A stretch of 64,000 nucleotides of DNA from Gemmatimonas groenlandica (GTDB lineage: Bacteria; Gemmatimonadota; Gemmatimonadetes; Gemmatimonadales; Gemmatimonadaceae), in NCBI RefSeq assembly GCF_013004105.1, contig NZ_CP053085.1:4526001-4590000 (forward strand), written 5' to 3'. Shown here piece after piece: positions 53,330 through 55,582 of this stretch (the stretch's first letter is position 1; every line of letters starts with the position of its first letter). A model generated the notes under the pieces. It was not told the origin of the DNA. It ran no database searches and worked only from the letters and a program-made list of their open reading frames with translations. The position numbers and the translations under genes are program-made.

Positions 53330-53446
53330 GATCACGCGGAGGCGCAGAGTGCGCAGAGAGCGCAGAGCCGTCACGCGTAATTCCCCTGGCTGTTTCCCCT
53401 GCATTACTCTCTGCGGCCTCTGCGCTCTCTGCGCCTCCGCGTGATC
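53330..53446. repeat. Long hairpin repeat, CGCAGAG family, copy 3
   Basis: The ends are perfect inverted repeats starting GATCACGCGGAGGCGCAGAG, extended by further CGCAGAG units. The loop (about 41 bases) contains TTCCCCTGG and GTTTCCCCTGCA. It fills much of the 336-base gap before the multicopper oxidase gene; nothing else is evident there. Confidence 0.92.
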
Positions 53447-53613: not shown

Positions 53614-55431
53614 ATGTTCGCTCGTCCGTGGTCGTATCTGCTCGTGGCCGCACTCACTACTTGGTTTGGAATCGGCACCAGGGCGGTAACGCCGGTAGCT
53701 GATGCCAACGACAACCGACGCGCGGCGGGGCGGAAAGTGGCCGACACGATGTTCGTCGACCTCGATATCCGGATGGCGCGCTGGTATCCGGAGGGGGAGG
53801 GCGGCGACGTGGTGGAAGGGCCGGTGATCGGCGAAGTCGGACGCGCGCCGCAGGTACCGGCGCCGTTGATCCGCGTACGTGCCGGTACCGTGATCATGGC
53901 GCGCATTACCAACGCGCTGACCGATTCCGCGGTGACGTGGCGGGGACTCAACCGCAAGCCCGGCTTCGACACCATCACGCTCAAGCCCGGCGAAACTACC
54001 ATGCGTCGCTTCGTGGCCGGCGCCCCTGGCACCTACGTGTACGGCGCACAGGTGGGCGTCGTGAACTGGGACGTGCGTGAACGCGAGCAGACGTATGGCG
54101 CGTTTGTCGTCGATTCCATCGGCGCGCGGACCGATGATCGCATCTTCGTCATGAACGTGTGGGGCGACGGCTCGCCGGAGAAATATCGCAATGCGCTCGC
54201 CATCAACGGACGCGGCTGGCCATACACGGAACGCATCACCGCGCAGACCGGTGACACGCTACGCTGGCGCATCGTGAACGGCACCATTCGCGTGCATCCC
54301 ATGCATCTGCATGGCTTCTACTTCAAGATGCTCGCGAAGGCGGATTCGTCGCGCGCCACGCACATCGCGAAGGCCAAGCAGCCGATGCTTGTGACCGAGC
54401 TGATGGACCCCTTCACTACGATGGATATGGAGTGGGTGGCGGCGCGCTCGGGGAACTGGCTCTTTCACTGTCATCTCGCCTTTCACGCCGTCGCCGACAC
54501 CCGCTACACGCCCGGCGTGAGCGACCACGATCATCACTCCGCCGACGCGGCCAAACACATGGCCGGACTGGTGATGGGTATTTCGGTGACCGATCGCGTA
54601 CGCACGGTGGCCGCGCGCCGCGTCGCGCCGCGAACGATGCGGCTGCACGTGCAGGAAGGCGCGCGGCGCGGCAAGTCGGAGCGGGCGCTCGGCTTCGTGC
54701 TGCAAGAGGGAGCATCGCCCGCCGCCGATTCCGTCAACATACCCGGCTCTCCACTCATCCTCACGCGTGGACAGCCCACCGACATCACCGTCATCAACCA
54801 TCTCAAGGAGTCGACCGCCGTGCACTGGCATGGCATCGAGCTCGAGAGCTTCTCCGACGGTGTCGCCGGCTGGAGTGGCGCCGCAGGCAAGCACGCGCCC
54901 GCCATCGCACCGGGTGATTCGTTCGTGGCGCGACTCACACTGCCACGGGCCGGCACGTTCATCTATCACACGCACCTCAACGACGTCGTGCAGCTCACGT
55001 CGGGACTCTACGGCGGCATCGTGGTGCTCGAGCCAGGACAGCGCTACAACCCGGCGCGCGATCACCTGTTCGTGGTAGGATGGGATGGCCCCGATGAGCC
55101 GGCACGGTTGCTGGTGAACGGTGACTCGGCGCCGCCGCCGAAGCTGCTGGCGCGCGGCGTCACCCATCGTCTGCGATTCGTCTTCATCGGCGCCGTAAAC
55201 GGCAACACGCTCACGCTCTCCGACAGCACCGGCCCCGTCACCTGGCGCGCCGTGGCCCGCGACGGTTACGAAATGCCCGCCGCCCAGCGCGAACTGCTCC
55301 CCGCGAAATTCCGCGGCTGGGCAGGCCAAACGTGGGACTTCGAATTCCAGACCGACCGCCCGGGCGTTTACCGACTCACATTCGGCAACCCAGCCAAACC
55401 CGTGTGGAAGGGCGAGCTCGTGGTGCGCTGA
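53614..55431 (+). CDS. Four-cupredoxin multicopper oxidase with rearranged copper motifs
   Basis: A 605-aa exported enzyme (signal LLVAALTTWFGIG). Domain 1 (about 45-165) has the fold of a first MCO domain, but its copper motifs are replaced by TWRG (108-111) and YGAQ (143-146). Domain 2 (about 170-340) carries HPMHLHG (228-234) and HCHLAFH (285-291: type-1 Cys286 and His291, with a His-rich DHDHH loop after). Domain 3 (about 360-480) carries HWHG (404-407) and HTH (452-454). Domain 4 (to 605) lacks copper motifs. The set makes one type-1 site and eight trinuclear-cluster His, in reverse of the usual HWHG-first order. It probably oxidises phenols or metals (Cu, Mn) in the periplasm. The usual axial Met position after HCH holds Thr. 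Confidence 0.88.
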   Translation: MFARPWSYLLVAALTTWFGIGTRAVTPVADANDNRRAAGRKVADTMFVDLDIRMARWYPEGEGGDVVEGPVIGEVGRAPQVPAPLIRVRAGTVIMARITNALTDSAVTWRGLNRKPGFDTITLKPGETTMRRFVAGAPGTYVYGAQVGVVNWDVREREQTYGAFVVDSIGARTDDRIFVMNVWGDGSPEKYRNALAINGRGWPYTERITAQTGDTLRWRIVNGTIRVHPMHLHGFYFKMLAKADSSRATHIAKAKQPMLVTELMDPFTTMDMEWVAARSGNWLFHCHLAFHAVADTRYTPGVSDHDHHSADAAKHMAGLVMGISVTDRVRTVAARRVAPRTMRLHVQEGARRGKSERALGFVLQEGASPAADSVNIPGSPLILTRGQPTDITVINHLKESTAVHWHGIELESFSDGVAGWSGAAGKHAPAIAPGDSFVARLTLPRAGTFIYHTHLNDVVQLTSGLYGGIVVLEPGQRYNPARDHLFVVGWDGPDEPARLLVNGDSAPPPKLLARGVTHRLRFVFIGAVNGNTLTLSDSTGPVTWRAVARDGYEMPAAQRELLPAKFRGWAGQTWDFEFQTDRPGVYRLTFGNPAKPVWKGELVVR

Positions 55432-55463: not shown

Positions 55464-55582
55464 GATCACGCGGAGGCGCAGAGCGCGCAGAGAGCGCAGA
55501 GCCGTCCCACGACCAGTTCCCTTAGCAGTTTCCCCAGCACTCCCCTCTGCGGTCTCTGCGCGCTCTGCGCCTCCGCGTGATC
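55464..55582. repeat. Long hairpin repeat, CGCAGAG family, copy 4
   Basis: About 30 bases at each end match perfectly as inverted repeats (GATCACGCGGAGGCGCAGAG and on through CGCGCAGAGA). The loop shares GCAGAGCCGTC and AGTTTCCCC-type segments with copy 3 in the same orientation. It lies between the multicopper oxidase stop and the aminotransferase start. Confidence 0.92.

Follow-up and report, generated by a model that had tools for sequence, protein, structure and literature searches.

The 64,000-nucleotide window analysed here (from the soil bacterium Gemmatimonas groenlandica, phylum Gemmatimonadota; contig NZ_CP053085.1) contains an open reading frame (ORF) that begins with an ATG at 53614 and ends with a stop codon at 55431, and its 605-residue product is, as judged from its sequence, a multicopper oxidase that is secreted and consists of four cupredoxin domains (D1 to D4). 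We propose that this oxidase is very probably an O2-reducing enzyme of alternating A-type and B-type domains (A-B-A-B), in which the type 1 (T1) copper would be carried by domain 2, a single trinuclear cluster would lie between domains 2 and 3, and domains 1 and 4 would be copper-free. The proposal is built on four computed features: the order of the domains, the conservation of the ligands, the pairing of A and B domains, and a geometry of domains 2 and 3 that resembles ceruloplasmin. The oxidase belongs to a large, seemingly unnamed family outside the textbook two-, three- and six-domain classes.

The copper motifs carry the first part of the argument. Cu-oxidase_2 (PF07731; the L3/L4, T1-bearing type) matches residues 194-294 with a family E-value of 1.6e-24, and Cu-oxidase_3 (PF07732; the L1/L2 type) follows it at residues 375-474 with a family E-value of 1.9e-27; PF07732 also matches domain 1 independently, over its cut-off. 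The Pfam order and the motif positions thus agree with the initial annotation, which had placed HPMHLHG and HCHLAFH in domain 2 ahead of HWHG and HTH in domain 3 and had called this order the opposite of that in three-domain laccases. The ten His and one Cys ligands typical of the multicopper oxidase superfamily are all present in the L1-L4 motifs. In an alignment of 94 non-redundant relatives, H228, H233, H285, C286, H287, H291, H404, H406, H452 and H454 are invariant, H231 is kept in 93, and the second-sphere Asp415 of the trinuclear site is likewise found in 94/94. L4 precedes L1 in every one of the 112 related loci that were retrieved, which represent at least six phyla. As this order recurs in 112 loci and the ligands are kept in at least 93 of the 94 sequences, it is neither a product of chance nor a sequencing artefact, and a frameshift was ruled out on the same ground.

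Structure prediction carries the second part. The whole-protein AlphaFold2 model, built with 28 relatives (mean predicted local distance difference test score, pLDDT, 85.5; predicted template modelling score, pTM, 0.87), shows four beta-sandwich domains, as the cupredoxin count of the initial annotation had implied, and its best Foldseek matches are factor V/VIII, ceruloplasmin and MnxG (9bxa, TM 0.64). Each half of the chain fits a two-domain subunit of the oxidase/nitrite-reductase kind: D1-D2 fits 3gdc with Z 24.2 over residues 28-327, and D3-D4 fits 2zwn (Z 23.0) and 3g5w (Z 23.1) over residues 338-605, as well as the first two domains of 6vow (Z 24.8). Modelled alone from 66 sequences, D2-D3 (residues 171-478; pLDDT 89.4, pTM 0.86) superposes over both of its domains on residues 193-551 of human ceruloplasmin (Z 18.6, 261 residues, 3.6 A). 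By the domain limits we take this segment to be D2-D3 of ceruloplasmin, a pseudo-threefold copy of its D6-D1 trinuclear interface. A trinuclear site at the D2/D3 interface, as previously annotated, is therefore supported by the invariant ligands together with this superposition of a predicted structure, which has the geometry that such a site requires and speaks for a convergence of the eight trinuclear His there. The three-domain chains 3zx1 and 4f7k align to D2-D3 over 200-221 residues, perhaps in permuted order, and were not used as evidence. MnxG was not among the matches listed when the PDB sequences were searched with the D2-D3 piece.

Several observations weigh against this interpretation. 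The ceruloplasmin interface on which D2-D3 superposes is one without copper, and on MnxG the aligner picked residues 624-1002 rather than the copper-bearing pair. An acidic residue directly after the T1 His, or three positions after the Cys, provides the proton supply in some laccases, and it is absent in this oxidase. In a Pfam scan of 115 neighbouring ORFs no gene hints at a substrate, and no family is found in more than 4 of the 115.

Table 1 Features of the four-domain multicopper oxidase gene and its product (positions in the window)
Feature	Residues	Window position	Strand	Basis or remark
Four-domain multicopper oxidase gene	605 aa	53614..55431	+	trinuclear ligands divided over domains 2 and 3
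Probable Sec-type signal peptide	~1-24	53614..53685	+	by-eye sequence reading; hydrophobic helix 6-17 in AlphaFold2 model
Domain 1, A-type cupredoxin, copper motifs lost	40-168	53731..54117	+	PF07732 above cut-off; profile alignment to D3
TWRG, decayed HWHG counterpart	108-111	53935..53946	+	D1-D3 profile alignment
YGAQ, decayed YHTH counterpart	143-146	54040..54051	+	D1-D3 profile alignment
Domain 2, B-type cupredoxin, predicted T1 site and half of trinuclear site	172-333	54127..54612	+	PF07731; profile comparison
HPMHLHG	228-234	54295..54315	+	H228 T1; H231, H233 trinuclear; kept in 93-94/94
HCHLAFH	285-291	54466..54486	+	H285, H287 trinuclear; C286, H291 T1; 94/94
His/Asp-rich insertion, family-specific	292-315	54487..54558	+	between T1 His H291 and axial position
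M316-A-G-L319 (MxGL), near-invariant	316-319	54559..54570	+	L319 predicted T1 axial position
Domain 3, A-type cupredoxin, other trinuclear half	338-474	54625..55035	+	PF07732; profile comparison
HWHG	404-407	54823..54834	+	H404, H406 trinuclear; 94/94; second-sphere D415-G416 after motif
YHTH	451-454	54964..54975	+	H452, H454 trinuclear; 94/94
Domain 4, B-type cupredoxin, without copper ligands	480-605	55051..55428	+	like D2 and middle domain of three-domain enzymes; profile comparison

From this arrangement we infer copper occupancy, electron path, T1 potential and substrate as follows. The T1 copper would be held in domain 2 by H228, C286 and H291, with Leu319 at the axial position and predicted not to coordinate. 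Electrons would pass from it over the H285-C286-H287 bridge to the one trinuclear cluster, formed by H231, H233, H285 and H287 of domain 2 and H404, H406, H452 and H454 of domain 3, where O2 would be reduced to water. Without copper of their own, domains 1 and 4 would each serve a structural purpose as one half of an A-B unit. The B-to-A interface, which lies between subunits in two-domain oxidases, would here be found within one chain, as it is in six-domain oxidases. The likely role is the extracytoplasmic oxidation of phenols, as in laccases, or of Cu(I), Fe(II) or Mn(II), with O2 as the acceptor.

The surroundings of the T1 site bear on both potential and substrate. The insertion that follows H291 has a median length of 26 residues in the family, is enriched in His (10.4% compared with 3.6% in the whole protein) and contains at least two His in 89 of the 94 sequences. 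Such a loop would shape substrate access, and its His/Asp-rich composition slightly favours a putative metal-linked role. M316 and L319 are each kept in 93/94, and the glycine-anchored alignment places Leu at the axial position, which is taken by Met in 33/33 of the two- and three-domain enzymes of the phylum that share this motif. As Leu replaces Met there, the T1 copper is predicted to be of high potential; M316 could, however, swing in as a ligand. The family is thus a source of bacterial oxidases whose axial residue is predicted not to be Met. Such enzymes are of interest because low potentials are ascribed to two-domain laccases (PMC8236229) and because a Leu-to-Met change at the axial site of a fungal laccase lowered the potential by 140 mV (PMC4220974).

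Comparison of domain profiles gives scores of 71.3 for D1-D3, 65.5 for D2-D4, 50.0 for D2-D3, 34.7 for D1-D4, 32.9 for D3-D4 and 31.0 for D1-D2. The two alignments that the initial annotation had proposed, D1 with D3 and D2 with D4, are thus the best of the six pairs, and domains 1 and 3 are accordingly of A type and domains 2 and 4 of B type. Domain 2 reaches 127 with the B domain of type-B two-domain oxidases. Domain 4 resembles the middle domain of the three-domain oxidases of the phylum (60.7) nearly as closely as it resembles D2, so these scores fit more than one origin for it. In a tree of A domains, D1 (support 100/100) and D3 (100/98) form separate clades, each spanning several phyla, which indicates that the four-domain architecture is older than its spread. 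The initial annotation had read TWRG and YGAQ as the decayed motifs of domains 1 and 4; both domains have indeed lost their copper motifs, but the two tetrapeptides belong to domain 1. In domain 4 the profile alignment shows no recognisable remnant: a gap stands where the HPMHLHG loop would be, and GVYRL is aligned to the strand that leads into HCH.

How the architecture arose can be read in more than one way, and the duplication of a two-domain gene and the shortening of a six-domain gene both fit. That a type-B-like two-domain oxidase was duplicated in tandem, or fused, in this lineage and that the outer copper sites were then lost is plausible if somewhat short of an even chance. The A-B-A-B pairing, the fit of each half to a two-domain subunit, the T1 site in a B domain as in type B, and the weak grouping of D3 with one type-B domain in the tree (86/74) all speak for it. 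Against it, the tree does not recover D1 and D3 as sisters, although their joint clade is not rejected by the approximately unbiased (AU) test (p-AU 0.206; 111 columns, long branches), and D1 scores higher with the A domains of other oxidases (101 with those of three-domain and 82 with those of type-C two-domain enzymes) than with D3 (71). The earlier proposal of duplication followed by complementary loss therefore holds in that D1/D3 and D2/D4 are the best pairs, and is weakened in that D1 is equally or more like other A domains and stands in a clade apart from D3. Since the D2/D3 site is shared by six-domain enzymes of the MnxG type, the complementary loss may already have taken place in an older A-B-A-B(-A-B) protein. 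Descent from a six-domain ancestor of the MnxG/MofA type, with the site already at D2/D3 and the last two domains lost, is as plausible as the duplication. Bacterial six-domain oxidases have exactly this arrangement, with the trinuclear site between domains 2 and 3 and T1 in domain 2 only (PMC3600357); the Foldseek matches group the whole model with the six-domain proteins, and D1 is not specifically closest to D3. On the other side, the domain-by-domain matching included no six-domain relative, nothing of domains 5-6 is left after domain 4, and the relatives are of similar length.

The resemblance of domain 4 to the three-domain middle domain, and the fit of D3-D4 to 6vow, would also suit a circular permutation of a three-domain laccase, in which D2-D3-D4 correspond to B, A and middle domain and an N-terminal domain was added. 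We consider this unlikely, since the A-type D1 would have to be acquired separately. As the middle domain of three-domain enzymes is generally taken to be a B domain that has itself decayed, its match with D4 does not discriminate. Finally, the trinuclear site could be formed between molecules, by domain 2 of one chain and domain 3 of the next, as is established for the trimers of two-domain relatives; this is very improbable here, where D2 and D3 adjoin in one chain with a confidently predicted interface of the ceruloplasmin intrachain type.

Vasin et al. (2013; PMC3600357) sort multicopper proteins into two-, three- and six-domain classes, and the oxidase shares features with each class. With the bacterial and archaeal six-domain oxidases (MnxG and the MofA-like enzymes of Leptothrix) and the algal Fox1 it has in common the trinuclear ligands in domains 2 and 3 and T1 in domain 2, in the bacterial ones the only T1 domain (PMC3600357). 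Since these enzymes share the D2/D3 site, the motif order itself was known before; what is new is the four-domain class. Six-domain oxidases, however, have six domains and 1217 or more residues compared with four domains and 605 residues here, and, unlike them, this family has no recurrent partner gene nearby. The type-B two-domain oxidases are alike in their A-B unit, in T1 in the second domain and in trinuclear ligands across a B/A interface, here judged by superposition; they differ in having two domains per chain, whereas here two units are joined and one trinuclear and one T1 site are kept, and in having Met rather than Leu at the axial position. Three-domain laccases, CueO and CopA contain the same copper motifs, one T1 and one trinuclear site, but arrange them as A(L1/L2)-middle-B(L3/L4), whereas here the order is reversed and there are four domains. 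The NCBIfam models score far below their trusted cut-offs (TIGR01480 for CopA, the best, 128 of 479 bits; NF008205, 68 of 525; TIGR03389, 49 of 559). Ceruloplasmin, hephaestin and factors V/VIII show the A-B repeat within one chain, but have six domains, and the trinuclear site of ceruloplasmin lies between D1 and D6.

The family is widespread. The source genome contains three such genes, the two paralogs being 42-44% identical to this oxidase, and all its PF07731 and PF07732 matches lie within these three. One to four copies occur in 88 of 298 genomes of the same phylum. When one genome per species was scanned, more than 500 relatives came up, and the 80 that were kept comprise 51 from Gemmatimonadota, 16 from Acidobacteriota, eight from Bacteroidota, two unclassified, and one each from Rhodothermota, Pseudomonadota and Rokuibacteriota. 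We found no paper on four-domain oxidases in the open-access literature, an absence that is not proof, and databases surely hold these sequences under general, automated names. It is conceivable, although we would not yet call it probable, that they constitute a fourth architectural class (four domains, trinuclear site at D2/D3) widespread in Gemmatimonadota, Acidobacteriota and Bacteroidota, a surviving intermediate between two and six domains, with a high-potential, axial-Leu T1 site unusual for bacteria. The family would offer a concrete system for testing the evolution from two-domain to six-domain proteins. In a survey of soil 'laccases' with two- and three-domain models only, Gemmatimonadales was the largest order among the matches (PMC12045287), and surveys of this kind would count or name a common four-domain class wrongly.

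Among plasmid records a single match covers most of the protein, in Gemmatirosa kalamazoonensis (NZ_CP007129.1, 418946-420655; 94% of the protein); the replicon measures 1.1 Mb and the bacterium has been cultured, which makes this relative a practical source for expression. Many Gemmatimonadota genomes also encode type-C-like two-domain oxidases, a different class with the T1 motif HCHxxPxKxHIxKG in the first domain. Within the oxidase itself, an ANDNRxxAG segment (residues 31-39; window 53704-53730, + strand) between the signal peptide and domain 1 is strongly conserved in most family members, particularly N32, D33, N34 and G39, and perhaps ties the N-terminus to another domain. The gene is flanked by two near-identical inverted-repeat elements of about 117 bp (window 53330-53446 and 55464-55582), with a predicted long-stem hairpin (z -10.2). 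The 20-base arm CTCTGCGCCTCCGCGTGATC has 23 copies in the genome within 2 mismatches, several of them as inverted pairs, compared with 0 for the control, and the flanking repeat is a dispersed element resembling miniature inverted-repeat transposable elements (MITE) or repetitive extragenic palindromes (REP).
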